DNA of 64,000 nucleotides from NCBI RefSeq assembly GCF_014649655.1, contig NZ_BMTL01000020.1:62001-126000 (forward strand), read 5' to 3'. The stretch is from Streptomyces humidus. GTDB taxonomy: Bacteria > Actinomycetota > Actinomycetes > Streptomycetales > Streptomycetaceae. The notes beneath the pieces are model-generated. The model searched no databases and was not told the origin of the DNA. It saw only the letters and a list, made by a program, of their open reading frames with translations. This document shows, one piece after another, positions 1,858 through 19,433 of the stretch. Both the position numbers and the translations under genes were made by a program. Position 1 is the stretch's first letter. The number at the start of each line of letters is the position of its first letter.

Positions 1858-2700
1858 ATGGCCAACGTCGTACGTGCCGCACTGGTCCAGGCCACCTGGA
1901 CGGGCGACACCGAGTCCATGGTGGCGAAACACGAGGAGCACGCCCGCGAGGCGGCCCGCAGCGGCGCGAAGATCATCGGGTTCCAGGAGGTCTTCAACGC
2001 GCCCTACTTCTGCCAGGTCCAGGAGCCGGAGCACTACCGCTGGGCCGAGGCCGTCCCCGACGGGCCGACCGTGCGCCGTATGCAGGAGCTCGCGCGCGAG
2101 ACGGGCATGGTGATCGTCGTCCCGGTCTTCGAGGTCGAGCAGTCCGGTTTCTACTACAACACCGCCGCCGTGATCGACGCGGACGGCTCGTACCTCGGCA
2201 AGTACCGCAAGCACCACATCCCGCAGGTCAAGGGCTTCTGGGAGAAGTACTACTTCCGGCCCGGCAACGCCGGCTGGCCCGTCTTCGACACGGCCGTCGG
2301 CAAGGTCGGCGTCTACATCTGCTACGACCGGCACTTCCCGGAAGGCTGGCGACAACTCGGCCTCCAGGGAGCACAGTTGGTCTACAACCCGTCCGCGACC
2401 CACCGTGGCCTCTCCGCCCACCTCTGGCAGCTGGAGCAGCCCGCGGCCGCGGTCGCCAACGAGTACTTCGTCGCCGCGATCAACCGCGTCGGCGTCGAGG
2501 AGTACGGGGACAACGACTTCTACGGGACCTCGTACTTCGTCGACCCGCGGGGCAGGTTCGTCGGCGACCTCGCGAGCGACAAGGACGAGGAACTCCTCGT
2601 CCGCGACCTCGACTTCGACCTGATCGAGGAGGTCCGGCAGCAGTGGGCCTTCTACCGGGACCGCCGTCCCGACGCCTACGACGGGCTGGTGCGGCCGTGA
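1858..2700 (+). CDS. Beta-ureidopropionase (N-carbamoyl-beta-alanine amidohydrolase), copy 1
   Basis: Nitrilase-superfamily C-N hydrolase of 280 aa, the usual length of the bacterial single-domain enzymes. It should hydrolyse N-carbamoyl-beta-alanine to beta-alanine, CO2 and ammonia, the last step of reductive pyrimidine breakdown. The catalytic triad is visible: Glu44 in GFQEVF, Lys118 in KYRKHHIP and Cys155 in YICYDRHFP. ATG 1858 lies after AGGAGCAG; the longer upstream frame is non-coding. Its stop overlaps the next gene's GTG start (GTGA), implying coupling to the aminotransferase. A near-identical, gap-free paralogue lies at 5775. Specificity is inferred from neighbours (dihydropyrimidinase, aminotransferase, PucR); another N-carbamoyl amino acid amidase remains possible. 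Confidence 0.88.
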   Translation: MANVVRAALVQATWTGDTESMVAKHEEHAREAARSGAKIIGFQEVFNAPYFCQVQEPEHYRWAEAVPDGPTVRRMQELARETGMVIVVPVFEVEQSGFYYNTAAVIDADGSYLGKYRKHHIPQVKGFWEKYYFRPGNAGWPVFDTAVGKVGVYICYDRHFPEGWRQLGLQGAQLVYNPSATHRGLSAHLWQLEQPAAAVANEYFVAAINRVGVEEYGDNDFYGTSYFVDPRGRFVGDLASDKDEELLVRDLDFDLIEEVRQQWAFYRDRRPDAYDGLVRP

Positions 2701-3980
2701 GCGAACTCCACGACCGCCACCGCCGCGTCCTGCCCGACTGGCTCGCCCTCTACTACGAGAAGCCGCTGGAGATCACCCACGGGGAAGGCCGGCACGTCTG
2801 GGACGCCGAGGGCAACAGGTACCTCGACTTCTTCGGCGGCATCCTCACCACGATGACCGCGCACGCGCTGCCCGAGGTCACCAAGGCGGTGAGCGAGCAG
2901 GCCGGGCGGATCATCCACTCCTCGACGCTCTACCTCAACCGGCCCATGGTCGAGCTGGCCGAGCGGATCGCGCACGTCAGCGGCATCCCCGACGCCCGCG
3001 TCTTCTTCACCACCTCCGGCACCGAGGCCAACGACACGGCCCTGCTGCTCGCCACCGCTCACCGGCGCAGCAACACGGTCCTGGCCATGCGCAACAGCTA
3101 CCACGGGCGCTCCTTCAGCGCCGTCGGCATCACCGGCAACCGCGGCTGGTCGCCGACCTCGCTGTCCCCGCTGCAGACGCTGTACGTGCACGGCGGGGTG
3201 CGGGGCCGGGGCCCCTTCGCCGGTCTCGGCGACGCGGAGTTCATCGCCGCCTGTGTCGCGGACCTGAAGGACCTGCTCGGGCACACCCGCGCGCCCGCGG
3301 CGCTGATCGCCGAGCCCATCCAGGGCGTCGGCGGCTTCACCTCGCCGCCGGACGGACTGTACGCGGCCTTCCGCGAGGTGCTGGACGCCCACGGGATCCT
3401 GTGGATCGCCGACGAGGTGCAGACGGGCTGGGGCCGCACCGGCGAGCACTTCTGGGGCTGGCAGGCGCACGCTGACAACGGTCCGCCGGACATCGTCACC
3501 TTCGCCAAGGGCATCGGCAACGGCATGTCCGTCGGCGGGGTCGTCGCCCGCTCCGAGATCATGAACTGCCTGGACGCCAACAGCATCTCCACCTTCGGCG
3601 GCACCCAGGTCACCATGGCCGCCGGCCTCGCCAACCTCAACTACCTGCTGGAACACGACCTCCAGGGCAACGCCCGACGGGTCGGCGGTCTGCTCATCGA
3701 GCGGCTGCGGGCCGCAGCCGCCCAGGACCCGGGCGTCCACGAGGTGCGCGGTCGCGGACTGATGATCGGCGTCGAGCTGACCCGGCCCGGCACCCGACTG
3801 GCCGACCCCGGCCGAGCGGCCGCCGTGCTGGAGGCCGCCCGCGCCGGGGGGCTGCTGATCGGCAAGGGCGGCGGCCACGACACCAGCGCCCTGCGCATCG
3901 CCCCGCCGCTGTCCCTGACGGTGGCGGAGGCCGAGGAGGGCGCCGCCGTCCTCGAGAGCGCGCTGAGGAGCACGCTGTAG
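2697..3980 (+). CDS. Class III PLP-dependent aminotransferase (AGXT2 or beta-alanine transaminase type)
   Basis: 427 aa with the fold-type I aminotransferase pattern: a GTEAND cofactor-phosphate motif near residue 110, the Asp of WIADEVQTGWGR, and the PLP lysine Lys271 in TFAKGIGNG. Overall it resembles alanine-glyoxylate aminotransferase 2, a family that also transaminates beta-alanine and beta-aminoisobutyrate. Starting at GTG 2697 it overlaps the upstream stop by 4 nt, so it is probably translated together with beta-ureidopropionase. I infer that it turns the beta-alanine product into malonate semialdehyde. Family assignment is firm; the amino-donor assignment rests on context. Confidence 0.85.
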   Translation: MSELHDRHRRVLPDWLALYYEKPLEITHGEGRHVWDAEGNRYLDFFGGILTTMTAHALPEVTKAVSEQAGRIIHSSTLYLNRPMVELAERIAHVSGIPDARVFFTTSGTEANDTALLLATAHRRSNTVLAMRNSYHGRSFSAVGITGNRGWSPTSLSPLQTLYVHGGVRGRGPFAGLGDAEFIAACVADLKDLLGHTRAPAALIAEPIQGVGGFTSPPDGLYAAFREVLDAHGILWIADEVQTGWGRTGEHFWGWQAHADNGPPDIVTFAKGIGNGMSVGGVVARSEIMNCLDANSISTFGGTQVTMAAGLANLNYLLEHDLQGNARRVGGLLIERLRAAAAQDPGVHEVRGRGLMIGVELTRPGTRLADPGRAAAVLEAARAGGLLIGKGGGHDTSALRIAPPLSLTVAEAEEGAAVLESALRSTL

Positions 3981-4010: not shown

Positions 4011-5594
4011 ATGAGCATCGCCTTGCAGTCCTGGGGCCCCGTGGAGCCGCTGGAACCCGCACTGTCGGTCCGTCAGGTCCTGTCCCTGGAAAGGGTGCTG
4101 GCCGGTGAGCCCGAGGTGGTGGCCGGCGCGTCCCAGCTCGACCGGCCGGTGCGCTGGGTGCACGTCGCCGAGGCGGCCGACGTCGGCGTGATGCTCAGCG
4201 GCGGCGAGATGGTCCTCACCACCGGAGTGCTGCTCGCCGGCGACGAGAACGCGCAGACCGAGTACATCCGGTCCCTGCACCGCGCGGAGGCGGCGGCCGT
4301 GGTGCTGGGCCTCGGCCGGGCCTTTCCCACCCCGCCGGACGTGATGCGGCGCGCCGCCGAGCGCTGCGCACTGCCGATGGTGGTCCTGCACCGCCCGTTC
4401 CCCTTCGCCGAGCTGACCGAGGAGGTCCAGTCCCGGCTGGTCCGGCGCAAGTTCGCCGCCGTCAGCCTGTCGGAGGCCGTGCGGACCGCGCTGACGACAC
4501 TCATCACCGCGGGCGCCCCACTGCAACTGCTGCTGGACGAGATCGCCCAGCACGCCGCCTGTCCCGTCGTCGTCACCAACCTCGCCCACCGGGTGCTGGC
4601 CACGGCGGGGGAGCGCTCGGCGGTCGACGACGTGCTGCGGGACTGGGAGCGCATCGCCCGCCAGGCCGGAGGCAGCGAGGGCGACGGCTGGATCCGCGCC
4701 GAGCTGGGCGGACGCGGCGAGCGGTGGGGACAGATCATGCTCTGCGGCCACCGCGGCGACACCGCGGGCGGACGGCTGCTCGCCGACCGCGCCGCCGAGG
4801 CGCTCGTCCTGCACCGCATGCTCGGCGGCGCCTCCGCCCACACCTGGGAGGAGCAGTCCGCGCAGAGCCTGCTCACCGACCTGGTCTCCGGCGTCGTGCC
4901 GGCGCGGCAGCTGCTGCCCCGGGCGCGGGCGGCCGGCCTGCCCGTCAACCGGCGCACCTTCGTCCCGCTCGTCGTACGGGACGGCGATCCCGTCCGGCTC
5001 GAGCGCGTGCTGCGCCTGCTGGGGATGCCCGGGCTGGTCGCCGAGCTGGCCGACGGGGCCACCGCCGTCCTGCTCAGCCTGGCCCGCGACCAGGACGCCG
5101 AGGCGCTCGCCGCCCACTTCGCCGCCCGGCTGCGCACCGAGCCGGGAGAGCCACGCACCGTCGTCGCGGCGGCGGCGCCGCGGACCGTGTGGGACGAGGT
5201 GCCGTCCGGGCTGCGCGAGGCCCAGCACGTCGCGGACGCCGTGGCCGACTCCTCGGCCGCGCTCGGCCTCCCGGCCGTCGTCCGCCTCAAGGACGTCCAT
5301 CTGCGGGGCCTGGTGCGGCTGTTGCGGGACGACCCGCATGTGCAGTCCTTCGCCGAGCGGGAGCTGGACGGACTGCTGTGCGCGGCCGGGGACGACCTGC
5401 TCGCCGTCCTGCGGACCTATCTGGCCACCGGCCGCAACAAGTCCCGCACCGCGCAGCTCCACCATGTGTCGCGGCCCGCGCTGTACCGCCGGCTGGAGGC
5501 GATAGAGGGCCGGCTCGGCGTGGACCTCGATGACTTCGAGCAGGCCGCCTCGGTGCATATCGCGCTGCTCGCGCACGACGCGCAGCGCAGCTGA
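4011..5594 (+). CDS. PucR-family transcriptional regulator
   Basis: 527 aa. The N-terminal ~130 residues form a PucR (purine catabolism regulator) ligand domain, beginning SVRQVLSLERVLAGEPEVVAG and containing the GGEMVLTTG segment. A GGDEF-like middle region follows. The C-terminal ~55 residues (from about 470) are a PucR-type helix-turn-helix with NKSRTAQLHHVSRPALYRRLEAIEGRLG. It starts at ATG 4011 after AAGGGA, 30 nt after the aminotransferase stop, so it may share that transcript. PucR proteins usually activate purine, pyrimidine or amino-acid degradation genes. Candidate sites are the dyads at 1799-1829 and 5678-5716. The effector is unknown. Confidence 0.85.
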   Translation: MSIALQSWGPVEPLEPALSVRQVLSLERVLAGEPEVVAGASQLDRPVRWVHVAEAADVGVMLSGGEMVLTTGVLLAGDENAQTEYIRSLHRAEAAAVVLGLGRAFPTPPDVMRRAAERCALPMVVLHRPFPFAELTEEVQSRLVRRKFAAVSLSEAVRTALTTLITAGAPLQLLLDEIAQHAACPVVVTNLAHRVLATAGERSAVDDVLRDWERIARQAGGSEGDGWIRAELGGRGERWGQIMLCGHRGDTAGGRLLADRAAEALVLHRMLGGASAHTWEEQSAQSLLTDLVSGVVPARQLLPRARAAGLPVNRRTFVPLVVRDGDPVRLERVLRLLGMPGLVAELADGATAVLLSLARDQDAEALAAHFAARLRTEPGEPRTVVAAAAPRTVWDEVPSGLREAQHVADAVADSSAALGLPAVVRLKDVHLRGLVRLLRDDPHVQSFAERELDGLLCAAGDDLLAVLRTYLATGRNKSRTAQLHHVSRPALYRRLEAIEGRLGVDLDDFEQAASVHIALLAHDAQRS

Positions 5595-5774: not shown

Positions 5775-6617
5775 ATGAGCCGAGTGATCCGCGCCGCCGT
5801 CTTCCAGACGGCCTGGACCGGCGACAAGGAATCGATGATCCAGGTCCACGAGCAGGCGGTCCGCGACGCGGCCGCGCAGGGCGCCCGGGTCCTGTGCTTC
5901 CAGGAGCTGTTCTACGGACCGTACTTCTGCCAGGTCCAGGACCCGCAGTTCTACGAGTACGCCGAGCGGATCCCCGACGGGCCGATCGTCAGGCGGTTCC
6001 AGGCGCTCGCCGAGGAGCACGGCATCGTCCTGGTGCTGCCGATGTACGAGGAGGAGCAGCCGGGCGTCCTCTACAACACCGCCGCCGTGATCGACGCGGA
6101 CGGCTCGTACCTCGGCAAGTACCGCAAGCACCACATCCCCCAGGTCAAGGGCTTCTGGGAGAAGTTCTACTTCCGGCCCGGCAACGCGGGCTGGCCGGTC
6201 TTCGAGACGGCCGTCGGCAGGATCGGCGTCTACATCTGCTACGACCGCCACTTCCCCGAGGGCTGGCGCGCGCTGGGACTGGAGGGCGCGGAACTCGTCT
6301 TCAACCCCTCGGCGACCTCCCGCGGCCTGTCCTCCTACCTGTGGCAGCTGGAGCAGCCGGCGGCCGCGGTCGCCAACGAGTACTTCGTCGCCGCGATCAA
6401 CCGCGTCGGCGTCGAGGAACTCGGCGACAACGACTTCTACGGGACCTCGTACTTCGTGGACCCGGAGGCCCAGTTCGTCGGGGAGGTGGCGAGCGACAAG
6501 GAGAGCGAACTCGTCGTCCGCGACCTGGACATGGCCAAGCTGCGCGAGGTGCGCGACCGCTGGCAGTTCTACCGGGACCGCCGCCCCGACGCCTACCCCC
6601 CGCTGACCGCGCCGTAG
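5775..6617 (+). CDS. Beta-ureidopropionase (nitrilase superfamily), copy 2
   Basis: 280 aa, collinear without gaps with the protein at 1858, keeping Glu44, Lys118 and Cys155 in the same positions. It starts at ATG 5775, 5 nt after GGAGG. The two genes share uninterrupted identical stretches (2154-2222 with 6071-6139, 69 nt; 2443-2501 with 6360-6418, 59 nt) between regions where synonymous sites differ, suggesting an internal duplication kept similar by selection or gene conversion. Copy 2 has its own leader and is followed by a strong hairpin, so it is probably a separate transcript from copy 1. The substrate may be N-carbamoyl-beta-alanine or the thymine-derived N-carbamoyl-beta-aminoisobutyrate; the sequence does not decide. 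Confidence 0.86.
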   Translation: MSRVIRAAVFQTAWTGDKESMIQVHEQAVRDAAAQGARVLCFQELFYGPYFCQVQDPQFYEYAERIPDGPIVRRFQALAEEHGIVLVLPMYEEEQPGVLYNTAAVIDADGSYLGKYRKHHIPQVKGFWEKFYFRPGNAGWPVFETAVGRIGVYICYDRHFPEGWRALGLEGAELVFNPSATSRGLSSYLWQLEQPAAAVANEYFVAAINRVGVEELGDNDFYGTSYFVDPEAQFVGEVASDKESELVVRDLDMAKLREVRDRWQFYRDRRPDAYPPLTAP

Positions 6618-6711: not shown

Positions 6712-8115
6712 ATGAGCAGCCGAACCGTCATCCGGGGTGGCCTCGTCATCACCGCGTCCGACGAGATCCACGCCGACGTACTGATCGAGGACGGCCGCGT
6801 CGCCGCCCTCGCCGCCTCCGGCACCCCGGCCGCCGCGGCCTGGACCGCCGAGAGGGTCGTCGACGCCACCGGGAAGTACGTCATCCCGGGCGGCGTCGAC
6901 GTCCACACCCACATGGAACTGCCGTTCGGCGGCACCTTCGCCTCCGACACCTTCGAGACCGGCACCCGGGCGGCCGCCTGGGGCGGCACGACGACGATCG
7001 TCGACTTCGCCGTGCAGAGCGTCGGGCGCAGTCTGCGCGAGGGCCTGGACGCCTGGCACGGCAAGGCTGAGGGCAACTGCGCGATCGACTACGGCTTCCA
7101 CATGATCGTCTCCGACGTGAACCAGGACACGCTCAAGGAGATGGACCTGCTGGTGGAGGAGGGCGTCACCTCCTTCAAGCAGTTCATGGCGTACCCAGGC
7201 GTCTTCTACAGCGACGACGGCCAGATCCTGCGCGCCATGCAGCGCTCCGCCGAGAACGGCGGACTGATCATGATGCACGCGGAGAACGGCATCGCCATCG
7301 ACGTCCTCGTCGAGCAGGCGCTGGCGCGCGGCGAGACGGATCCGCGGTACCACGGCGAGGTCCGCAAGGCCCTCCTGGAGGCCGAGGCCACCCACCGTGC
7401 GATCAAGCTCGCCCAGGTCGCCGGGGCCCCGCTGTACGTGGTGCACGTGTCGGCGGCGGAAGCGGTCGCGGAACTGGCCCGGGCGCGCGACGAGGGGCGA
7501 CACGTCTTCGGCGAGACCTGCCCGCAGTACCTGTTCCTCTCGACGGACAACCTCGCGGAGCCCGGCTTCGAGGGCTCCAAGTACGTGTGCTCCACACCGC
7601 TGCGGCCCAAGGAGCACCAGGCCAAGCTGTGGCAGGGCCTGCGCACCGACGATCTCCAGGTCGTCTCCACCGACCACTGCCCCTTCTGCTTCGTGGGCCA
7701 GAAGGAGCTCGGCCGGGGCGACTTCTCGAAGATCCCCAACGGGCTGCCGGGCGTCGAGAACCGCATGGACCTGCTGCACCAGGCCGTCGTCGACGGGCAC
7801 ATCAGCCGCCGCCGCTGGATCGAGATCGCCTGCGCCGCCCCGGCCCGCATGTTCGGCATGTATCCCAAGAAGGGCACCCTCGCCCCGGGCTCCGACGCCG
7901 ACGTCGTCATCTACGACCCGCACGCCGAGCAGACCGTCTCCGCCGAGACCCACCACATGAACGTCGACTACTCGGCGTACGAGGGCAGGCGGCTCACCGG
8001 CCGCGTCGAGACGGTCCTCTCGCGGGGCGAACCCGTCATCGATCAGCGGAAGTTTGCAGGGCGTGCCGGTCACGGCCTGTACACGCCCCGCTCAACTTGC
8101 CAGTACCTCCAATGA
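6712..8115 (+). CDS. hydA: Dihydropyrimidinase (hydantoinase)
   Basis: 467-aa amidohydrolase that opens dihydrouracil or dihydrothymine to N-carbamoyl-beta-amino acids; related D-hydantoinases open hydantoins. The dinuclear zinc site is complete: His65 and His67 in DVHTHMEL, the carboxylated Lys156 in TSFKQFMAYPG, His189 in MMHAENG, His245 in VVHVSAAEA and Asp321 in STDHCPF. It starts at ATG 6712 after GGAGAGGGAGC. It supplies the substrate of the two beta-ureidopropionases. Family assignment is firm; preference for pyrimidines over hydantoins is inferred from the beta-ureidopropionase neighbours. Confidence 0.92.
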   Translation: MSSRTVIRGGLVITASDEIHADVLIEDGRVAALAASGTPAAAAWTAERVVDATGKYVIPGGVDVHTHMELPFGGTFASDTFETGTRAAAWGGTTTIVDFAVQSVGRSLREGLDAWHGKAEGNCAIDYGFHMIVSDVNQDTLKEMDLLVEEGVTSFKQFMAYPGVFYSDDGQILRAMQRSAENGGLIMMHAENGIAIDVLVEQALARGETDPRYHGEVRKALLEAEATHRAIKLAQVAGAPLYVVHVSAAEAVAELARARDEGRHVFGETCPQYLFLSTDNLAEPGFEGSKYVCSTPLRPKEHQAKLWQGLRTDDLQVVSTDHCPFCFVGQKELGRGDFSKIPNGLPGVENRMDLLHQAVVDGHISRRRWIEIACAAPARMFGMYPKKGTLAPGSDADVVIYDPHAEQTVSAETHHMNVDYSAYEGRRLTGRVETVLSRGEPVIDQRKFAGRAGHGLYTPRSTCQYLQ

Positions 8116-8249: not shown

Positions 8250-9269
8250 ATGGACTTCGGACTTGTCCTCCAGACCGACCCCCCTGCATCCCGCGTCGTC
8301 GAGCTGATGAAGCGCGCCGAGGACAACGGCTTCACCCACGGCTGGACCTTCGACTCGGCCGTGCTCTGGCAGGAACCGTTCGTGATCTACAGCCAGATCC
8401 TGGCGAACACCAGCCGGCTGACGGTGGGCCCGATGGTCACCAACCCGGGCACCCGCACCTGGGAGGTCACCGCCTCCACCTTCGCCACCCTCAACGACAT
8501 GTTCGGCAACCGCACGGTCTGCGGCATCGGCCGCGGCGACTCCGCGATGCGCGTCGCGGGCCGCCACCCCAACACCCTCGCCCGGATCAGCGCGGCCATG
8601 AAGGTCATCCGGGCGCTCGGCTCGGGCCAGGAGGCGGACCTCGGCGGCACGGTCGTCAGGTTCCCCTGGATCAAGGAGGGCGCGCACCTCCCCGTCTGGA
8701 TGGCCGCGTACGGTCCCAAGGCGCTGAAGATGACCGGCGAGGAGGCCGACGGCTTCATCCTCCAGCTCGCCGACCTCTACCTCACCGAGTACATGGTGAA
8801 GGCCGTCAAGGACGCCGCCGTCGCCGCCGGCCGCGACCCCGCGGAGGTGAAGGTCTGCGTGGCGGCACCGGCGTACGTCACCGAGGACGACTCGCCCGAG
8901 GCGCTCGCCCACGCCCGCGAGCAGTGCCGCTGGTTCGGCGGCATGGTCGGCAACCACGTCGCCGACCTCGTCTCCAAGTACGGCGAGCACTCCGCCGCCG
9001 TCCCCGACGAACTCACCGACTACATCAAGTCCCGCGAAGGGTACGACTACTCGCACCACGGCCGGGCCGACAACCCCGACACCGCGTTCGTGCCCGACGA
9101 GATCGTCGACCGGTTCTGCCTGATCGGACCGGCCGAAAAGCACATCGAGAAGCTGACCGCGCTGCGCGCACTGGGCGTCGACCAGTTCGCCGTGTACGAC
9201 ATGCACGACGCGCGCGAGGCGACCATCGACGCCTACGGCACCACGGTGATCCCGGCCGTCAACGGCTGA
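8250..9269 (+). CDS. LLM-class F420- or flavin-dependent oxidoreductase
   Basis: 339-aa luciferase-like TIM barrel of the actinobacterial F420/FMN group (I recall the TIGR03842 subfamily). It begins MDFGLVLQTDPPASRVVELM. The cofactor-binding region VGPMVTNPGTRTWEVTAST and the loop GIGRGDSAMR are typical. It starts at ATG 8250, 6 nt after AAGGAG. It lies between dihydropyrimidinase and the permease on the same strand. No PydA or PreA-type dihydropyrimidine dehydrogenase is in the window, so this enzyme may perform the uracil/dihydrouracil redox step or another ring modification. That role is inference; the superfamily is clear. Confidence 0.85.
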   Translation: MDFGLVLQTDPPASRVVELMKRAEDNGFTHGWTFDSAVLWQEPFVIYSQILANTSRLTVGPMVTNPGTRTWEVTASTFATLNDMFGNRTVCGIGRGDSAMRVAGRHPNTLARISAAMKVIRALGSGQEADLGGTVVRFPWIKEGAHLPVWMAAYGPKALKMTGEEADGFILQLADLYLTEYMVKAVKDAAVAAGRDPAEVKVCVAAPAYVTEDDSPEALAHAREQCRWFGGMVGNHVADLVSKYGEHSAAVPDELTDYIKSREGYDYSHHGRADNPDTAFVPDEIVDRFCLIGPAEKHIEKLTALRALGVDQFAVYDMHDAREATIDAYGTTVIPAVNG

Positions 9270-9367: not shown

Positions 9368-9420
9368 CCCGGAGACCCGCACGGCCTTTCCGGATCCGCC
9401 CCTCTTTGATTGGCCTGCCC

Positions 9421-10959
<1,539 letters not shown>

Positions 10960-11044: not shown

Positions 11045-11713
11045 TCAGCTCTTCCGGCCGTTCGACAGGGCGGCCACCGCTTCCTTGGCCGCCCTGATCG
11101 CGCCCTTGTTGATCTCGTCGGTGGCGGGCGCCTTCTTCGACTCGAAGTCGCTGCCGTTGTAGTTGACGACGACCAACGCGTTGGACACCCGGGCGATGAC
11201 GACGCCCTCACGGGTCTGCTGTTTGTCCTGCGTCGTCAGGTTGACCACCGAGTACGCCGCGTTCCCGAGCCCGGGCACCGCCCCGCCGCCGCTCTTCTCC
11301 TTGACGCGCTCCTCGTACGAACTGCGTGCCGCGTCGTCCGAGTCCGTGATCTCGAAGGAGATGTCCAGCCAGCGGTAGTCGTATCCCTTGAGCGCGTTCC
11401 ACGAGCAGGTGCGGCGCAGAGCGGTGTCCGTGGACGGGATCTCCTTGCCGGCCGTCTTGGCGCCCGGCACCAGCGTGGTGACCGTCTTCGCGGCCACACC
11501 GGCGCAGGGGGCGGGCGCGGCGCCGTACGTCTTGGAAACGGCCGTCGTGGACGGCTCGGACGTCTCCTCGGACCGGGTCTGCTGCGTGTCCTTGGCCGCG
11601 GTGTCCTGCGTCGCGGTGAGCGGTCCGGAGGTCAGCGCCCAGCCCGCGCAGGCGAGCACGGCCACGGGGGACAGGCGCGCGGTGAGGGCGAGCGGCAGCG
11701 GAAGAGAGCGCAC
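11045..11713 (-). CDS. DUF3558-like putative lipoprotein
   Basis: 222 aa. The first ~35 residues are a short export signal (VRSLPLPLALTARLSPVAVL) followed by a lipobox-like VLAC with Cys22, so it is probably a membrane-anchored lipoprotein. A Thr/Ser/Glu-rich linker follows, then a domain with two conserved cysteines (PAPCAGV, RRTCSWN) and a C-terminal RVSNALVVVNYNGSDF strand, the pattern of DUF3558 proteins. GTG 11713 places the signal at the terminus; the frame is open further upstream but that part is Arg/Pro-rich. It is convergent with the permease and has no obvious functional partner. Function unknown. Confidence 0.7.
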   Translation of the reverse strand: MRSLPLPLALTARLSPVAVLACAGWALTSGPLTATQDTAAKDTQQTRSEETSEPSTTAVSKTYGAAPAPCAGVAAKTVTTLVPGAKTAGKEIPSTDTALRRTCSWNALKGYDYRWLDISFEITDSDDAARSSYEERVKEKSGGGAVPGLGNAAYSVVNLTTQDKQQTREGVVIARVSNALVVVNYNGSDFESKKAPATDEINKGAIRAAKEAVAALSNGRKS

Positions 11714-12039
11714 GGCGCACTTTCGTGGGGGACGGTGCGGACGGGGTCCGCAGTGCGGACGGTGGACGCCAGTGTCACACGACTGTCTGCGGGGCGGAAG
11801 CGAAAACTCGCTGCGTGCACGCGCGGTGACGAAGGGCCGCGTCAATTCCACGGCATTGCAGGCCCATTGGCGCGTATGAGGAGAAAACGGGCCCGAAGGA
11901 CTCTTCGGTCCGGCCTGACGTCCCGCGGCCCCGACGACGGGCCGGAGCCGACGGGCGCCCCGGCGCGACGGTTGTGACGGTTGTGACGTCTCCCACCCGC
12001 TCTTGCCGGGGCGAGGACCGCCTGCCTACGTTCGGTCGC
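11714..12039. other. Intergenic region between divergent genes
   Basis: 326 nt with no convincing gene. It holds the leaders of the lipoprotein gene (minus) and the DUF6400-like gene (plus). Two perfect 9-bp direct repeats GACGGTTGT at 11967-11984 are followed by a third GACG, a plausible activator site about 20 nt upstream of the -35 box at 12003. Confidence 0.5.
12003..12032 (+). promoter_or_regulatory. Probable promoter for a leaderless transcript
   Basis: TTGCCG (12003-12008), an 18-nt spacer and TACGTT (12027-12032) resemble the main streptomycete sigma-factor consensus. The -10 box ends exactly 7 nt before ATG 12040, and there is no Shine-Dalgarno sequence, so transcription would start at or next to the A of the start codon. 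Confidence 0.55.
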
Positions 12040-12688: not shown

Positions 12689-12750
12689 CCGTGGCCGAGG
12701 ATCGCACCGGCGGCCCCTGCTGCCTGCCGTTCGTCCGCCCGGAGGCAGCC

Positions 12751-14493
12751 GTGCACATCCTGCTCCTTGCCAGTGCGTTCAACAGCCTGACCCAGCGCGT
12801 GCACGCCGAACTGCGCGACCACGGCCACCGGGTGGCGGTGGAACTCGCCCTGCCCGGCGGCTCGATGCCGGAGGCCGTACGGCGGCACGCACCGCAGCTC
12901 GTCGTCGCGCCGATGCTGAAGTCGGCGATTCCCGAGGAGGTCTGGGCGGCGTACCCCTGCTTCGTCGTCCATCCGGGGCCCGTGGGCGACCGTGGACCGT
13001 CCTCCCTGGACTGGGCGATCCACGAGGGCGCCGACGCATGGGGCGTCACCGTCCTGCAGGCCGACGCCGAGATGGACGCCGGCGACGTGTGGGCCACCGT
13101 GCCGTGCCGGCTTCCCGAGGTGTCCAAGAGCGAGCTGTACCGGGGCGAGATCGCCGACGCCGCACTCGAGGCCGTGCTGCTCGCGGTGGAGCGCTTCGCC
13201 GGTGGCGCCTACGTGCCGCGCGGGCAGGACGCGGACCGCGCGGCCGAGGCCCGCCTGCGCACACGTCCGTACATGGACCAGAGCGTCCGCCGGATCGACT
13301 GGTCCGAGGACTCCACGCGGACCGTCCTGCGCAAGCTGAGAGCGGCGGACTCGCAGCCCGGTGTGCTGGACACGCTGCTCGGCGGCGAGTGGTACCTGCA
13401 CGGCGGTCACCCCGAGGGCGTGCTGCGCGGCCGGCCCGGCGAGCTGCTGGCGACGCGGGCCGGGGCGATCTGCCGGGCCACCCGGGACGGCGCCGTGTGG
13501 ATTCCCGAACTGCGGCCCCGGCGCGAGACCGGTCGGCCCCCCACGTTCGGACTGCCCGCCGTACGGGCGCTGGGCGACCGGCTGCCGCCGCTGCCCGAGA
13601 AGCCCGCCCCCCGGTGGTCCGGCGCGGGGAACCGCGGCTGGGCGGACATCCGCTACCGGGAGGAGCGGAACGCGGGGTTCCTCTCGTTCTCCTTCCCCGG
13701 CGGCGCCATGAGCACCGGGCAGTGCCGGCGGCTGCTGGACGCCTACCGGGAAGCGTGCGGGCGCCCCACGTCGGTGCTGGTGCTGGGCGGCGAACGGGAC
13801 TTCTTCTGCAACGGGATCCACCTCGACGTCATCGAAGCGGCCGACGACCCCGCCGCCGAGTCCTGGGCGAACATCAACGCCATCGACGACCTGGTCGAGG
13901 CGGTCCTGACGACGACGGACCGGCTGGTGGTCTCGGCGGTCGCGGGCAACGCCGCCGCCGGCGGGGTCATGCTCGCCCTGGCGGCCGACGAGGTGTGGTG
14001 CCGCACGGGCGCCGTGCTGAACCCGCACTACCGCCTGATGGGCCTGTACGGCTCGGAGTACTGGACCCACACGCTGCCGCGCAGGGTGGGCCCCGGGACG
14101 GCCGAACGTCTCATGCGCGACGCGCTGCCGGTGAGCTCGGCGGGCGCCCTGCGCCTCGGGCTCGCCGACCGCGTGGTCGACAGCGCACCCGAAGGGTTCG
14201 CGCGCGAGGTCGCAGACCTGGCGGCGCGGCTGGCGGCACTGCCGGCGACCGCGTCCCGGATCGCCGCCAAGAAGGCGGCGCTGGACCGGCTGCAGAGCGT
14301 GACCCCGCTGGCCGGCTTCCGTGAGCGGGAGCTCACCCGGATGCGCCGCGCCTTCGACGACCCCGACGCCCCGTACCACACGCTGCGCCGTTCCTTCGTC
14401 CACAAGGAGAGGCCCCCGCGCACCCCGCCGCACCTCGGCCCGGCCGCGGTTGCGGGAACGGGTCCGGCCCCCTCTGCCGCCGGCATCACCTGA
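12751..14493 (+). CDS. hypX: Hydrogenase maturation protein HypX (HoxX)
   Basis: 580 aa. The N-terminal ~165 residues form a formyl-tetrahydrofolate-binding hydrolase/transferase domain, with HPGPVGDRGPSSLDWA and the following AWGVTVLQADAEMDAGDVWA. A linker resembling the C-terminal domain of methionyl-tRNA formyltransferase follows, then a crotonase (enoyl-CoA hydratase) domain from ~300 (GGERDFFCNGIHLDVIEAAD; AGNAAAGGVMLALAADEVW). Work on Ralstonia HypX shows it makes the active-site CO ligand from formyl groups via formyl-CoA, supporting hydrogenase assembly in air. GTG 12751, 5 nt after GGAGG, is preferred over GTG 12691. It heads the hydrogenase locus, 102 nt before the small-subunit gene. 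Confidence 0.9.
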   Translation: MHILLLASAFNSLTQRVHAELRDHGHRVAVELALPGGSMPEAVRRHAPQLVVAPMLKSAIPEEVWAAYPCFVVHPGPVGDRGPSSLDWAIHEGADAWGVTVLQADAEMDAGDVWATVPCRLPEVSKSELYRGEIADAALEAVLLAVERFAGGAYVPRGQDADRAAEARLRTRPYMDQSVRRIDWSEDSTRTVLRKLRAADSQPGVLDTLLGGEWYLHGGHPEGVLRGRPGELLATRAGAICRATRDGAVWIPELRPRRETGRPPTFGLPAVRALGDRLPPLPEKPAPRWSGAGNRGWADIRYREERNAGFLSFSFPGGAMSTGQCRRLLDAYREACGRPTSVLVLGGERDFFCNGIHLDVIEAADDPAAESWANINAIDDLVEAVLTTTDRLVVSAVAGNAAAGGVMLALAADEVWCRTGAVLNPHYRLMGLYGSEYWTHTLPRRVGPGTAERLMRDALPVSSAGALRLGLADRVVDSAPEGFAREVADLAARLAALPATASRIAAKKAALDRLQSVTPLAGFRERELTRMRRAFDDPDAPYHTLRRSFVHKERPPRTPPHLGPAAVAGTGPAPSAAGIT

Positions 14494-14595
14494 ACGGCCC
14501 CCGCTGCCGTCTCATCACGGCCGGACGGCTGCTACGAAGAAGATCGAGGGCCGAAACGCAGGCCTTCATCCCTTACCTCCCCAGGAGGCGGTCCC

Positions 14596-15669
14596 ATGAC
14601 TGAGGCGACGGCGAGGACGGTCGGCGCTGCGCCCGCCGAAGAGACACCCACGATCCACATTCTCTGGATCAACGCGGGGCTGAGCTGCGACGGCGACTCC
14701 GTCTCGTTGACGGCGGCCATGCAGCCGAGCATCGAGGAGATCGTGCTCGGCGTGCTGCCGGGGCTTCCGAAGATCGCCGTCCACTGGCCGCTCATCGACT
14801 TCGAATGCGGTCCGATCGGCGGCTCGGACACGTTCATCGAGTGGTTCTTCAAGGGGGAGCGGGGCGAGATCGACCCGTTCGTCCTGGTCGTCGAGGGTTC
14901 CATCCCCAACGAGGCGATCAAGCCCGAGGGCTACTGGTGCGGGTTCGGCGACAACCCGGAGACCGGCCAGCCGATCACCACCAGCGAGTGGATCGACCGG
15001 CTGGCGCCCAAGGCCCTGGCGGTCGTCGCGATCGGCACCTGCGCCACCTACGGCGGCATCCACGCCATGGCGGGCAACCCCACCGGCGCGATGGGCGTGC
15101 CGGACTACCTCGGCTGGGACTGGAAGTCCCACGCCGGCATCCCCATCGTGTGCGTGCCCGGCTGTCCCATCCAGCCCGACAACTTCTCCGAGACGCTCAC
15201 CTACCTGCTCTACCAGGCCACCGGCGCCGCGCCGATGATCCCGCTCGACGACAAGCTGCGGCCCACCTGGCTGTTCGGGGCCACCGTCCACGAGGGCTGC
15301 GACCGCGCGGGCTACTACGAACAGGGTGAGTTCGCCCTGTCGTACGACTCCCCGAAGTGCCTGGTCAAGCTGGGCTGCTGGGGCCCGGTCGTCAAGTGCA
15401 ACGTGCCCAAGCGCGGTTGGATGAACGGCATCGGCGGCTGCCCGAACGTCGGCGGCATCTGCATCGCCTGCACCATGCCGGGCTTCCCCGACAAGTTCAT
15501 GCCGTTCATGGACGAGCCCCCCGGCGCCAAGGTCTCCAGCACGGCCAGCGGCGCCTACGGGGCCGTCGTCCGCAAGCTGCGCTCGATCACGGCGAAGACG
15601 GTGGACAAGGAGCCCAGGTGGCGCCGTACCGGAGAGAAGATCACCACCGGCTACCGGCCGCCCTGGTGA
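14596..15669 (+). CDS. hhyS: [NiFe]-hydrogenase small subunit, group 1h-like
   Basis: 357 aa; carries the Fe-S relay of a high-affinity uptake hydrogenase. It begins after a short tail with HILWINAGLSCDGDSVS: Cys31 is followed by Asp34 where standard small subunits have a second Cys (CxxD), as in the Ralstonia actinobacterial-type enzyme. Other likely proximal ligands are Cys149 (GTCATYGG) and Cys190 (VPGCPIQP). Cysteines for the outer clusters follow in HEGCDRAG, SPKCLVKLGCWGP, CNVPKRGW, GGCPNVGG and CIACTMPG. There is no twin-Arg signal, so the enzyme should face the cytoplasm. GGAGG precedes ATG 14596 by 7 nt. The family oxidises atmospheric H2 in Streptomyces spores; group assignment is by motif recall. 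Confidence 0.92.
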   Translation: MTEATARTVGAAPAEETPTIHILWINAGLSCDGDSVSLTAAMQPSIEEIVLGVLPGLPKIAVHWPLIDFECGPIGGSDTFIEWFFKGERGEIDPFVLVVEGSIPNEAIKPEGYWCGFGDNPETGQPITTSEWIDRLAPKALAVVAIGTCATYGGIHAMAGNPTGAMGVPDYLGWDWKSHAGIPIVCVPGCPIQPDNFSETLTYLLYQATGAAPMIPLDDKLRPTWLFGATVHEGCDRAGYYEQGEFALSYDSPKCLVKLGCWGPVVKCNVPKRGWMNGIGGCPNVGGICIACTMPGFPDKFMPFMDEPPGAKVSSTASGAYGAVVRKLRSITAKTVDKEPRWRRTGEKITTGYRPPW

Positions 15670-15773
15670 CGCCCCGCCACGACTGACCCCGCACGTCCCC
15701 CACGACCGACCCGCTTCTGCTTCGCGCACCCCACAACCGAACCTCCCGCGCAACGAAGGGCACGGCAAAGACG

Positions 15774-17555
15774 ATGGCAACGACGAAGGCGGCCGGCGAC
15801 GGCAGCGGCCTGGTGGAGATGGCCTGGGACCCGATCACCCGGATCGTGGGCAGCCTGGGCATCCACACGAAGATCGACTTCAAGCAGAAGCGGGTCGCGG
15901 AGTGCTACAGCACCTCGTCGGTCTTCCGCGGCTACAGCGTCTTCATGCGCGGCAAGGACCCGCGCGACGCCCACTTCATCACCAGCCGCATCTGCGGGAT
16001 CTGCGGCGACAACCACGCCACCTGCTCGGTGTACGCGCAGAACATGGCGTACGGCGTGAAGCCCCCGAACCTCGCCGAATGGATCATCAACCTCGGCGAG
16101 TCCGCGGAGTACATGTTCGACCACAACATCTTCCAGGAGAACCTGGTCGGGGTCGACTACTGCGAGAAGATGGTCAGGGAGACCAACCCCGGCGTCCTCG
16201 CACTCGCCGAGCGCACCGAGGCCCCGCACGCGGCCGAGCACGGCTACCGCACCATCGCCGACATCATGCGCTCGCTGAACCCCCTCGAAGGGGAGTTCTA
16301 CCGCGAGGCCCTCCAGGTCAGCCGCTACACCCGCGAGATGTTCTGCCTGATGGAGGGCCGCCATGTGCACCCCTCCACCCTCTACCCGGGCGGCGTCGGC
16401 ACCATCGCCTCCGTGCAGCTCTTCACCGACTACCTCAGCCGGCTGATGCGCTACGTCGAGTTCATGAAGCGCGTTGTGCCCCTGCACGACGACCTGTTCG
16501 ACTTCTTCTACGAGGCGCTGCCCGGCTACGAGGAAGTGGGCCGCCGCCGTGTCCTGCTCGGCTGCTGGGGAGCGCTGAACGACCCGGAGTACTGCGACTT
16601 CACCTACGCCAACATGACGGACTGGGGCCGGCGGATGTTCGTCACGCCCGGCATCGTCGTCGACGGCAAGCTGGTCACCAACGACCTCACCGAGATCAAC
16701 CTCGGCATCCGCATCCTGCTGGGCAGCTCCTACTACGAGGACTGGCGGGGCCAGGAGCAGTTCGTCACCCATGACCCGCTGGGCAACCCGGTGGACCCGC
16801 GCCACCCGTGGAACCAGCACACCATCCCCGCCCCGCAGAAGCGGGACTTCGACGACAAGTACAGCTGGGTCATGTCCCCGCGCTGGTTCGACGGCAAGGA
16901 CCACCTCGCCCTGGACACCGGAGGCGGCCCCATCGCCCGCCTGTGGTCCACCGCCCTGTCCGGACTCGTCGACATCGGCTACGTCAAGGCCACCGGGCAC
17001 AGCGTGGTCATCAACCTGCCGCGCACCATGACCAAGCCGGAGACCACCTTCGAGTGGAACATCCCGAAGTGGTCCAACGCGCTGGAGCGCAACCGCGCGC
17101 GCACCTACTTCCAGGCGTACTCCGCCGCCGTCGCGCTGCACTTCGCGGAGAAGGGCCTGGAGGAGGTCCGCGCCGGACGCACCCAGACCTGGGAGAAGTT
17201 CGAGGTGCCCCAGGAGGGCATCGGCGTCGGTTTCACCGAGGCGGTCCGTGGAGTCCTCTCCCACCACATGGTGATCCGGGACGGAAAGATCGCCAACTAC
17301 CACCCCTACCCGCCCACCCCCTGGAACGCCAGCGTCCGCGACTCCTACGGCACCCCGGGCCCGTACGAGGACGCAGTGCAGAACACCCCGATCTTCGAGG
17401 AGAACACCCCGGACGACTTCAAGGGCATCGACATCATGCGCGCCGTCCGCAGCTTCGACCCCTGTCTTCCCTGCGGCGTCCACATGTACGTCGGCGGCGG
17501 CAAGACGGTGAAGTCGATGCACGTGCCCACCGGCCTGAGCGGACTGGGCGGATGA
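15774..17555 (+). CDS. hhyL: [NiFe]-hydrogenase large subunit, group 1h-like
   Basis: 593 aa; holds the NiFe(CN)2CO active site. The L1 motif RICGICGDNHATC supplies Cys74 and Cys77; the L2 motif DPCLPCGVH supplies Cys564, Cys567 and His570. A further 23 residues follow His570 (starting MYVGGGKTVK), in the position of the peptide that maturation proteases normally remove. The protein starts at ATG 15774, 104 nt after hhyS, behind a weak GAAGGG site. The stop overlaps the ATG of the NifU-like gene (ATGA), so at least eight downstream genes may be translated in series. The maturation protease is encoded at 20872. Confidence 0.93.
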   Translation: MATTKAAGDGSGLVEMAWDPITRIVGSLGIHTKIDFKQKRVAECYSTSSVFRGYSVFMRGKDPRDAHFITSRICGICGDNHATCSVYAQNMAYGVKPPNLAEWIINLGESAEYMFDHNIFQENLVGVDYCEKMVRETNPGVLALAERTEAPHAAEHGYRTIADIMRSLNPLEGEFYREALQVSRYTREMFCLMEGRHVHPSTLYPGGVGTIASVQLFTDYLSRLMRYVEFMKRVVPLHDDLFDFFYEALPGYEEVGRRRVLLGCWGALNDPEYCDFTYANMTDWGRRMFVTPGIVVDGKLVTNDLTEINLGIRILLGSSYYEDWRGQEQFVTHDPLGNPVDPRHPWNQHTIPAPQKRDFDDKYSWVMSPRWFDGKDHLALDTGGGPIARLWSTALSGLVDIGYVKATGHSVVINLPRTMTKPETTFEWNIPKWSNALERNRARTYFQAYSAAVALHFAEKGLEEVRAGRTQTWEKFEVPQEGIGVGFTEAVRGVLSHHMVIRDGKIANYHPYPPTPWNASVRDSYGTPGPYEDAVQNTPIFEENTPDDFKGIDIMRAVRSFDPCLPCGVHMYVGGGKTVKSMHVPTGLSGLGG

Positions 17556-18091
17556 GCGCGCCGACGACGGCGCGACCCGTCGACGCGGAGCAGACCGGGC
17601 GCCGGGTCGAGGAGGTGCTGGACCGGCTGGCCGGGAGCGACCCGGCCGCCGCGGCGGCGGCCGAGGAACTGGTCCGCTCCCTCATGGACTTCTACGGCTC
17701 GGGCCTGGCCCGCGTCCTGCACCTGCTGTCCGACGCTCCGGGCGACCCGCTCGCCGTCCTGCTCGGGGACGAACTCGTCGCGAGCCTCCTCGTCCTGCAC
17801 GACCTGCACCCCGAGGACCGCGACACCCGTATCGCCCGGGCCCTCGGCAGCGTCCGGGAACACGCCCTGGACGTCGTGGACTTCGACGAGGAGAGCGGCG
17901 CCCTGACCCTGCGGGCCGGGGAGTCGAGCGGCTGTGGCTGCGGCTCCGGCGCGAGCGCCCGGGAGGCCGCGCGCGCGGCCCTCGCCTGCTTCGCGCCGGA
18001 GGTCACGGCCGTCGACGTGCGGACCGGGCCGTCCGGGCCCGCGCTCCTCCAGATCGGCACCGGGCCGGCGGGCCCGACGGGGACCCGATGA
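17552..18091 (+). CDS. NifU-like (Nfu-domain) hydrogenase-associated protein
   Basis: 179 aa. The N-terminal ~100 residues are helical (EEVLDRLAGSDPAAAAAAEELVRSLMDFY). The C-terminal part resembles the Nfu Fe-S scaffold fold: a strand LTLRAG, then Cys-rich SGCGCGSG, an Ala-rich helix, then EVTAVDV. Classic Nfu domains have CxxC; here it is Cys128-Gly-Cys130 (CxC), with another Cys in ALACFAPEV. It overlaps hhyL and the DUF5947 gene by 4 nt each. A role in Fe-S delivery to HhyS or in electron transfer is inferred from location; the altered motif makes a plain Nfu function uncertain. Confidence 0.8.
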   Translation: MSAPTTARPVDAEQTGRRVEEVLDRLAGSDPAAAAAAEELVRSLMDFYGSGLARVLHLLSDAPGDPLAVLLGDELVASLLVLHDLHPEDRDTRIARALGSVREHALDVVDFDEESGALTLRAGESSGCGCGSGASAREAARAALACFAPEVTAVDVRTGPSGPALLQIGTGPAGPTGTR

Positions 18092-18744
18092 ACGCTTCCC
18101 CGGCGCCCGCCCGGCGCGCGCACCCCGCCGGACTGCGCAGGTTCCGCACCGAGCGCACGCCGCGGCCCGAGCGCTGCGAACTGTGCGCGGTGGCCGTGCC
18201 CGAGGCCGGCCACCGCCACCTGGTCGACACGGAAAAGCGCGCCCTGGTCTGCGCCTGCACCGCCTGTGCGCTGCTGATGGAACAGCCGGGCGCCGCCGCG
18301 GGCCGCTTCCGCACCGTCCCGGCCCGCTACCTCACCGACCCCGGTCACCGCCTCGACGAGAGCGCGTGGGACGCGCTGCAGATCCCGGTCGGCGTCGCCT
18401 TCCTGTTCCGCAACGCCGCGCTCGACCGGCTGGTCGCCCTCTACCCGAGCCCGGCCGGAGCCACCGAGAGCGAACTCGAACCGGCCGCCTGGACGGCGGT
18501 CCTCGGCCGCAGCCCCCTCGCCGAGCTGCTCGAACCCGACGTGGAGGCGCTGCTGCTGCGCCGCACCGACGGCCGCTTCGAGTGCCACCTCGTCCCCATC
18601 GACATCTGCTACGAACTCGTCGGCCGCATGCGCCTGTTGTGGCAGGGCTTCGACGGCGGGGCCGAGGCCCGCGCCGCTCTGGACGCGTTCTTCGCGGACG
18701 TCGCGCGACGCGCCCGGCCCGTGGACGAGGCGGTGCGCCCGTGA
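18088..18744 (+). CDS. DUF5947 protein with Cys/His cluster motif
   Basis: 218 aa. The N-terminal third has a dense metal-ligand pattern: Cys30-x2-Cys33, His42-x-His44, then Cys55-x-Cys57-x2-Cys60. The rest is an alpha/beta domain with IPVGVAFLFRNAA and HLVPIDICYELVGRMR. There is no signal peptide or membrane helix. It is coupled by 4-nt overlaps to the genes on both sides. I recall the family as DUF5947. Mixed Cys/His motifs like this occur in Rieske-like or zinc proteins; mycobacterial hydrogenase operons also carry a predicted Fe-S protein gene (HhyE/HucE) beside the structural genes. I infer a possible electron relay, not proven by the sequence. Confidence 0.78.
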   Translation: MNASPAPARRAHPAGLRRFRTERTPRPERCELCAVAVPEAGHRHLVDTEKRALVCACTACALLMEQPGAAAGRFRTVPARYLTDPGHRLDESAWDALQIPVGVAFLFRNAALDRLVALYPSPAGATESELEPAAWTAVLGRSPLAELLEPDVEALLLRRTDGRFECHLVPIDICYELVGRMRLLWQGFDGGAEARAALDAFFADVARRARPVDEAVRP

Positions 18745-19433
18745 CGGAGTTCTCCTTCGCCTGCACGGGCGTGCGCGCCGACCGCTACGCCGCCGGACCG
18801 ACCCTCGTCTTCCGGCTGCGCGTGACCGCCGCCGGCGGCGCACGCGTGCACGCCCTCGCGCTGCGCTGCCAGATCCGCATCGAACCGGCGCGCCGCGGCT
18901 ACGGGCCCGCGGAGGCCGACGGCCTCGCGGACCTCTTCGGCGAGCGCTCCCGCTGGGGCAGCACGCTCCAGCCGGTGCAGTTCGCCCAGATCGCGCTCAT
19001 GGTCCCGGGTTTCACCGGCGAGACCGAGGCCGACCTCGTGGTGCCCTGCACCTACGACATGGACATCGCGGGGACCCGCTACCTCACCGCCCTCACCGGC
19101 GGCGAGGTCCCGCTGCTGATGCTGTTCTCCGGCACGGCCTTCACCGGGGACGGCGGTTTCCAGGTGGAGCCCGTGCCGTGGGACCGCGAGGCGGCCTACC
19201 GGATGCCGGTCGCGACCTGGCGGGAGATGGTCGAGCAGCACTTCCCCGGCTGCGGCTGGATCCGCCTGCCGCGCGACACCATGGACGCCCTCCTCGCCTA
19301 CCGCTCCCGGCGCGCGCTGCCCTCCTGGGAGGCGACCCTCGAGGCCCTCCTCGACGACGGCGCCGCCGCGGACCCGCCCCGCAGCGACCCGCTGCGCGCG
19401 CTCACCGGCACCACCGGAAGGACGGATCCGTGA
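18741..19433 (+). CDS. DUF6084-like hydrogenase-associated protein
   Basis: 230 aa starting at GTG 18741, overlapping the DUF5947 stop by 4 nt. It looks like a beta-rich domain: FSFACTGVRADRYAAGPTLV, alternating strands such as LALRCQIRIEPARRGY, then LVVPCTYDMDIAGTRYL and EVPLLMLFSGTAF. The C-terminal ~50 residues are helical (WREMVEQHFPGCGWIRLP). I recall the family as DUF6084, always seen in this operon context, but no function is known. Only three cysteines are present and none is in a paired motif, so it is unlikely to hold an Fe-S cluster. Possibly a structural partner or assembly factor. Confidence 0.75.
   Translation: MTEFSFACTGVRADRYAAGPTLVFRLRVTAAGGARVHALALRCQIRIEPARRGYGPAEADGLADLFGERSRWGSTLQPVQFAQIALMVPGFTGETEADLVVPCTYDMDIAGTRYLTALTGGEVPLLMLFSGTAFTGDGGFQVEPVPWDREAAYRMPVATWREMVEQHFPGCGWIRLPRDTMDALLAYRSRRALPSWEATLEALLDDGAAADPPRSDPLRALTGTTGRTDP

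Follow-up and report, generated by a model that had tools for sequence, protein, structure and literature searches.

The question raised by this locus is which enzyme carries out the first step of reductive pyrimidine degradation in a gene cluster that encodes a dihydropyrimidinase and β-ureidopropionase-like enzymes and lacks PydA. A gene for an LLM-class oxidoreductase lies within the cluster, and its product is best read, from gene content and comparison, as an F420H2-dependent uracil/thymine reductase that would functionally replace PreTA. We think it probable that the cluster is a Pyd operon with an F420 enzyme of the family TIGR03842 in place of PydA/PreTA, the iron-sulphur flavoenzyme.

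The pyrimidine cluster

All seven genes of the cluster are encoded on one strand of the window, which is the complete analysed stretch of 64,000 nucleotides (Table 1). The preliminary description had placed the LLM gene amid genes for a dihydropyrimidinase, two β-ureidopropionases, an aminotransferase, a PucR regulator and an NCS1 permease, and this arrangement is borne out by the open reading frames and their matches to Pfam and NCBIfam families.

Table 1. Genes of the pyrimidine cluster, with their positions in the window and the matches on which the assignments are based
Gene product	Position	Strand	Evidence and remarks
Second carbon-nitrogen hydrolase, β-ureidopropionase-like	~1858-2700	+	PF00795, in the frame of ORF 619-2700
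Class III aminotransferase	2697-3980	+	PF00202; GTG start
PucR-type transcriptional regulator	4011-5594	+	PF07905 and PF13556
Carbon-nitrogen hydrolase, β-ureidopropionase-like	5775-6617	+	PF00795
Dihydropyrimidinase	6712-8115	+	TIGR02033, 568.9 bits (cut-off 393.25)
LLM-class oxidoreductase, TIGR03842	8250-9269	+	339 aa; Bac_luciferase 1.3e-56; TIGR03842 match
NCS1 nucleobase:cation symporter	9406-10959	+	TIGR00800, 481.9 bits (cut-off 353.1)

In an NCBIfam profile search, the LLM protein scored 569.7 bits against TIGR03842 ('F420_CPS_4043'; cut-off 295.45), a family of the hypoth_equivalog type to which no reaction has been assigned. Both carbon-nitrogen hydrolases, here also called amidases, are positive for PF00795, and neither reaches the cut-off of a listed NCBIfam model. 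The start of the second one was read from the sequence as the ATG at 1858, which is preceded by AAGGAG, and its stop overlaps the start of the aminotransferase gene by 4 bases. For the aminotransferase, no NCBIfam model was shown at its cut-off; β-alanine/β-aminoisobutyrate is proposed as its substrate from context only. The open reading frame of the NCS1 symporter begins with TTG, and its sixth codon is an ATG.

Proposed pathway

In the route that we propose, the NCS1 permease would import uracil (or thymine), and the LLM enzyme would reduce its ring to give dihydrouracil, the hydride passing directly from F420H2 (to C6, by analogy to dihydropyrimidine dehydrogenase). Dihydropyrimidinase would open the ring of dihydrouracil, a β-ureidopropionase, a step assigned to the amidase encoded at 5775-6617, would then release CO2 and ammonia, and the class III aminotransferase would turn β-alanine into malonate semialdehyde. 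The route would end with a CoA-acylating (methyl)malonate-semialdehyde dehydrogenase (MMSDH) where related clusters encode one. The parts of the cluster, their linkage, the lack of PreA, the link to F420 genes and, in a predicted model, the fold of an F420 enzyme are observed; which substrate is used, in which direction the reaction runs and how the hydride is transferred are inferred. An F420H2-dependent reduction of uracil to dihydrouracil had already been put forward in the preliminary description, and genome comparison lends it support through co-occurrence, the absence of PreA, an apparent exchange with PreA, and linkage to F420 genes.

The classical enzyme, PydA/PreT-PreA, holds the same place in the pathway and has the same companions (dihydropyrimidinase, carbon-nitrogen hydrolase, NCS1, PucR and aminotransferase). 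It is nevertheless unrelated to the LLM protein, which has no DHO_dh match. It consists of two subunits rather than a single protein of 339 aa, and its electron donor is NAD(P)H whereas F420H2 is proposed for the LLM enzyme.

Absence of the known first-step enzymes

PydA had been described as missing from the cluster, and a genome-wide search, as had been suggested at that stage, yielded no PreA elsewhere. The window genome (9.7 Mb, completeness 100) contains two DHO_dh matches, of which the sole one above the cut-off is a quinone-type PyrD and the second scores 22.9 bits, below the family cut-off. Searches of this genome gave no match to PreA (E 1e-60), to RutA (E 1e-60) or to the barbiturase family (E 1e-10). 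PreA (E 1e-60) was likewise found in 0 of 394 genomes of the class Actinomycetia and in 0 of 188 genomes of the phylum, two samples that overlap; the E. coli and Deinobacterium controls of this search were positive. The LLM protein of the window has no match to DHO_dh (PF01180) or NF006183 at E 0.001.

A subset of 56 genomes with the LLM gene was chosen for a closer inspection of DHO_dh proteins. A single one is present in 44, and the two found in each of the other 12 count against a reading of the LLM protein as F420-dependent uracil reductase. The second protein is strong (215-245 bits) in five of these 12 (G037, G099, G223, G232, G330) and weak (26-77 bits) in seven. As a separate observation, the five strong second proteins are not PreA according to the search at E 1e-60. 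RutA scores above its cut-off in one of the 56 genomes (G229) and below it in three more, and barbiturase-family proteins occur in two (G093, G100).

Co-occurrence and gene order

Among the 394 class genomes, TIGR03842 is present in 115 and dihydropyrimidinase in 118, with both in 112 (Fisher p ~1e-86, a value to be taken only as a guide, since related genomes were counted separately). The family occurs in 39 of 40 genomes of the same genus, that of the window included. Of the 112 genomes with both genes, 111 have them on the same contig, and in all 111 they are on one strand; the distance is at most 5 kb in 110 genomes and at most 300 bases in 84. This co-occurrence in 112 of 394 genomes and the uniform strand make chance an unconvincing explanation of the LLM neighbourhood. 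Four of the 115 matches to TIGR03842 are partial (G072, G094, G284, G340). In G094 (L079, 8489-9480), the gene is present as two overlapping pieces, perhaps due to a frameshift or a sequencing error.

Regions were read in 24 genomes with the LLM gene, chosen for spread and to cover exceptions rather than at random, and 20 of them have carbon-nitrogen hydrolase, dihydropyrimidinase and LLM genes in this order on one strand. The other four are G269, where the LLM and dihydropyrimidinase genes are 34 kb apart, and three genomes with the LLM gene and no scored dihydropyrimidinase, which count against the proposed function. In the first of these three (G074, L047), the locus lies at a contig edge and a dihydropyrimidinase fragment adjoins the LLM gene; in the second (G229), only an amidase lies beside it, with RutA elsewhere in the genome; in the third (G029), neither gene is adjacent. 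The TIGR03842 gene of G029 stands alone between genes of the nucleoside phosphorylase superfamily and the phosphomannomutase family (L046, 7516-12028).

The converse, dihydropyrimidinase without TIGR03842, is seen in six genomes (G009, G016, G031, G068, G159, G299) and also counts against the proposed function. In G016 (L044, 7855-8721), a different, Mer-like LLM gene adjoins that of dihydropyrimidinase (151 bits to TIGR03555, below the cut-off), which may be another way of carrying out this step.

In a set of 80 named relatives, 74 of them Streptomyces, dihydropyrimidinase is the match directly before the LLM gene in 78, and the complete gene order of the window recurs exactly in 39, some loci being cut by contig ends. 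Some clusters contain an additional aldehyde dehydrogenase gene. That of L076 (G336) is a CoA-acylating methylmalonate-semialdehyde dehydrogenase by its score (683 bits, cut-off 448.5), and enzymes 60-93% identical to it are encoded in L051, L052, L058, L059 and L075; in the first four of these loci (60-61% identity), the gene lies between those of dihydropyrimidinase and the LLM protein.

These dehydrogenases bear on the possibility that the LLM enzyme serves a different step of the cluster or acts on another of its metabolites, such as malonate semialdehyde, with uracil being reduced by an unrecognised enzyme. The presence of the dehydrogenase gene in some clusters only would suit such a role, as would the alcohol and sugar phosphate substrates of related F420-dependent LLM enzymes (structures of the alcohol dehydrogenase and of Fgd were among those matched). 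The LLM gene is, however, still present in all the clusters with an MMSDH-type dehydrogenase listed above, the searches for DHO_dh and PreA found no alternative uracil reductase, and a PreA cluster whose remaining parts are the same, described in the following section, has no LLM gene in the 15 kb viewed. We consider a function at another step very unlikely.

Comparison with PreA clusters

As PreA was not found in the Actinomycetota, no natural replacement between PreA and LLM could be demonstrated inside that phylum, and the comparison was directed to plasmids of other phyla. From 50 records with relatives of a hydA gene from Leisingera, ten were chosen. Six of the ten hydA regions contain PreA and, next to it, an NAD(P)- or FAD-dependent oxidoreductase (here termed PreT); the other four (Thalassospira, Sulfitobacter, Sinorhizobium meliloti and Aminobacter) have neither PreA nor LLM, so that hydA alone is no proof of uracil degradation.

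The most informative case is a plasmid of Cytobacillus spongiae (Bacillota), with genes for a carbon-nitrogen hydrolase, an FAD oxidoreductase, PreA, HydA, NCS1, PucR, MMSDH and an aminotransferase. This cluster has the parts found in the window, except that the PreA pair replaces the LLM protein and MMSDH is added; no LLM gene was found in the 15 kb viewed around it.

The companions of the LLM gene also bear on the substrate. The amidases encoded at 1858-2700 and 5775-6617 are 56% and 57% identical, respectively, to the carbon-nitrogen hydrolase of the Cytobacillus PreA cluster, compared to only 26-28% for the N-carbamoyl-D-amino-acid hydrolases encoded beside two hydA genes without PreA. The NCS1 protein shares 46% identity with its counterpart in a PreA cluster of Burkholderia and only 28% with the one of Cytobacillus. 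Identities of the dihydropyrimidinase are 47% to the HydA of Cytobacillus, 41-43% to those of Burkholderia and Klebsiella (both PreA-linked) and of Leisingera, and 39-40% to two HydA proteins without a link to PreA; such values hardly discriminate. For the aminotransferase, identities to its counterparts in these clusters are 29-33%.

The preliminary description had considered that the LLM enzyme might act on a modified pyrimidine or hydantoin; in this alternative, the cluster would degrade hydantoins or a modified pyrimidine, and the LLM enzyme would modify that substrate. TIGR02033 is indeed named D-hydantoinase, and the next models matched by the NCS1 protein, below their cut-offs, are allantoin carriers. 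A hydantoin cluster was rejected on the strength of the amidase identities, and hydantoin is accordingly disfavoured as substrate. Further points against this alternative are the MMSDH of L076, which fits β-alanine/β-aminoisobutyrate, and the lone LLM gene beside a nucleoside phosphorylase-family gene in L046. We regard this alternative as very unlikely, and the least probable of those weighed here, although the true substrate may still be a modified pyrimidine.

Fold and active site

An AlphaFold2 model of the LLM protein, computed with 25 family sequences, has a pLDDT of 90.6 and a pTM of 0.90. Its best structural matches by VIA-align are Mer structures (8qq8, Z 35.8, rmsd 2.7, 315 aligned residues; 1z69 with F420, Z 35.5), and 1z69 is also the best match in a sequence search (E 7.8e-30). 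The top 15 structure entries (Z 28.8-35.8) are all F420-type enzymes; monooxygenases appear from Z 27.8 onwards, and RutA with uracil is found at 25.0. The predicted fold is thus closest to the F420-dependent, luciferase-like TIM-barrel hydride transferases.

Mer, although nearest to the TIGR03842 protein in both sequence and structure, differs from it at the active site. According to a study of Mer (PMC11094777), its catalytic acid is Glu6, Val62 lies below F420, with Gly61-Val62 in jMer representing a cis-peptide glycine before Val/Ile, and a model places the carboxamide residue 178 and Asp96 next to the pterin. In pairwise alignments, Glu6 corresponds to Val in 25 of 25 family members (A1) and to Val in nine and Cys in two of a further 11 (A2). 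Gln172, Asp97 and Val63 of the family align with residue 178, Asp96 and Val62 of Mer and are invariant (25/25 and 11/11), while the residue before Val63 is Met, Phe, Leu or Cys instead of the Gly61 of jMer. The loss of Glu6 counts against our interpretation in that the proton donor of Mer has no counterpart. The alignments suggest that the F420 site and the residues holding a pyrimidine ring have been kept and that the acid which activates the methylene group has been lost, as would be expected if the substrate were a free pyrimidine. Mer itself was rejected as an identity for the LLM protein, which lacks Glu6 (Val6 in TIGR03842) and scores 111.5 bits against TIGR03555 (cut-off 348.7).

RutA shares with the proposed enzyme both the LLM fold and the action on uracil. 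It is an FMN monooxygenase that opens the uracil ring oxidatively. A RutA-like ring opening was rejected because dihydropyrimidinase would then be without a role; in addition, TIGR03612 (RutA; cut-off 498.3 bits) is missing among the 20 families matched by the LLM protein at E 0.001.

A similar idea has been proposed from gene neighbourhood for uric acid clusters of Chloroflexota, where a putative F420-dependent reductase of the luciferase family would take the place of YgfK or of UacX, a DHO_dh-type protein (PMC12507026). That case, known from its gene neighbourhood, concerns another pathway (yanthine reduction, with SsnA) and another phylum.

Linkage to F420 genes

Two plasmids of Rhodobacterales connect the LLM gene directly to F420. 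On a plasmid of Leisingera caerulea, a run of cofG-cofH-cofD-cofC-cofE-npdG ends in the LLM gene and faces genes for PntAB, an aminotransferase, a Zn-dependent hydrolase, HydA and NCS1. The cof genes and npdG serve the synthesis and reduction of F420, and PntAB is a transhydrogenase. No PreA is annotated within 35 kb on this plasmid, and both the LLM gene and hydA are also present in nine further Leisingera records. A Paracoccus alcaliphilus plasmid has the same run of F420 genes ending in the LLM gene; no pyrimidine gene is annotated in the ~21 kb that follow the LLM gene or in the 10 kb before it, which counts against a function in pyrimidine degradation. By their scores (506 and 503 bits, above the cut-off), the LLM proteins of Leisingera and Paracoccus also belong to TIGR03842, and they are 42-43% identical to that of the window.

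Two further plasmid matches to the family were noted. One, on a Caballeronia plasmid (NZ_CP049322.1, 93154-93537), is a fragment covering 38% of the query and 75% identical to the Leisingera protein, under a gene annotated as sulfatase-like; the other is in a Streptomyces plasmid record without annotation.

Among the 115 class genomes with the LLM gene, CofH is strong in 97, weak in seven and absent from 11, the strong and weak matches being separated by E-value. The 11 genomes without CofH (E 1e-40) are also without CofG (E 1e-5) and hence have no FO synthase, which counts against a dependence on F420, as does G074 (84% complete), where CofH is weak and CofG does not reach the cut-off. It was for these 11 genomes that we seriously weighed whether the LLM enzyme reduces uracil with FMNH2 or another flavin in place of F420H2; RutA-type members of the LLM class, which are also within the range of structural matches (Z 25), use FMN.

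A closer look at the same genomes reversed the argument. CofE was looked for in 17 of the 18 genomes without a strong CofH match (all but G074) and is present in every one, the 11 without FO synthase included; in ten of these 11 it is encoded on the LLM contig, 7.5 to 38 kb from the LLM gene. These ten linkages are not independent, since eight of the genomes belong to one family. In G336, a single run comprises genes for an LLM protein of the F420-G6P family, cofE, cofC, cofD, an ABC importer, and then carbon-nitrogen hydrolase-dihydropyrimidinase-LLM-aminotransferase-MMSDH; the binding protein of the importer (L076) is above the cut-off of TIGR03868, 'putative F420-0 ABC transporter' (409.4 bits, cut-off 392.4). 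A relative of this binding protein (at least 52% identity, G336 counted) occurs in seven of the ten genomes without FO synthase that were fetched, G204 being left out; among the seven, only the protein of L076 was scored against TIGR03868. The loci with genes for F420 completion beside the predicted importer are L075, L076 (5149-11729), L077, L083, L085, L087 and L088.

Given CofE in all of them and the predicted importer in seven of ten, the genomes without FO synthase seem to import an F420 precursor near the operon. Genes for the completion of F420 beside an importer of the TIGR03868 type probably represent salvage of F420 precursors in FbiC-less Actinomycetia, as judged from gene content; the F420-0 importer as such is already a named NCBI prediction. 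With the runs of F420 genes on the plasmids of Leisingera and Paracoccus ending directly in the LLM gene, and with F420 enzymes as the nearest relatives in sequence and structure, a flavin as donor has in our view only a very slight probability, below that of a function at another step.

Significance

Among the titles and abstract openings listed in our literature search, none reports an F420 enzyme in the reductive pyrimidine pathway, prior publication elsewhere being possible, and we found no report of an assay for any member of TIGR03842. In a 2021 F420 review (PMC8498797), the remaining LLM enzymes of Actinomycetales are described as having no known role, and the review contains no word beginning with 'uracil'.

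Many Streptomyces-related soil bacteria seem to begin uracil breakdown with an F420 enzyme and not with an iron-sulphur enzyme. We believe it likely, with somewhat less assurance than for the cluster itself, that TIGR03842 is a class of iron-sulphur-free dihydropyrimidine dehydrogenases working by direct hydride transfer from F420H2, that it provides the standard first step in Streptomyces and many Actinomycetia, and that it is important to F420 physiology. The proposed importance for F420 physiology is based on the two Rhodobacterales plasmids that carry the F420 pathway beside the LLM gene, and on the Actinomycetia without FO synthase that keep the completion genes, and often an importer, near it. 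If this is true, the enzyme that opens the reductive pyrimidine pathway, so far missing, would be named for a whole bacterial class, a hypothetical NCBI family would gain a function, and F420 would be given a central catabolic task. An iron-sulphur-free uracil reductase might also serve to break down fluorinated pyrimidines.

Genes following the cluster

A hydrogenase locus lies directly after the pyrimidine cluster (12691-19433), with genes for a HypX-like protein, the small and large subunits of a NiFe hydrogenase, DUF5947 and DUF6084. The protein encoded from 12691 has formyltransferase and enoyl-CoA hydratase domains, a combination which we take to be HypX-like; the HypX-like and hydrogenase genes are taken as unrelated to the pyrimidine cluster. 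In front of this locus, a minus-strand open reading frame of 268 aa (11045-11851) shows coding-like GC3 and has no Pfam match.
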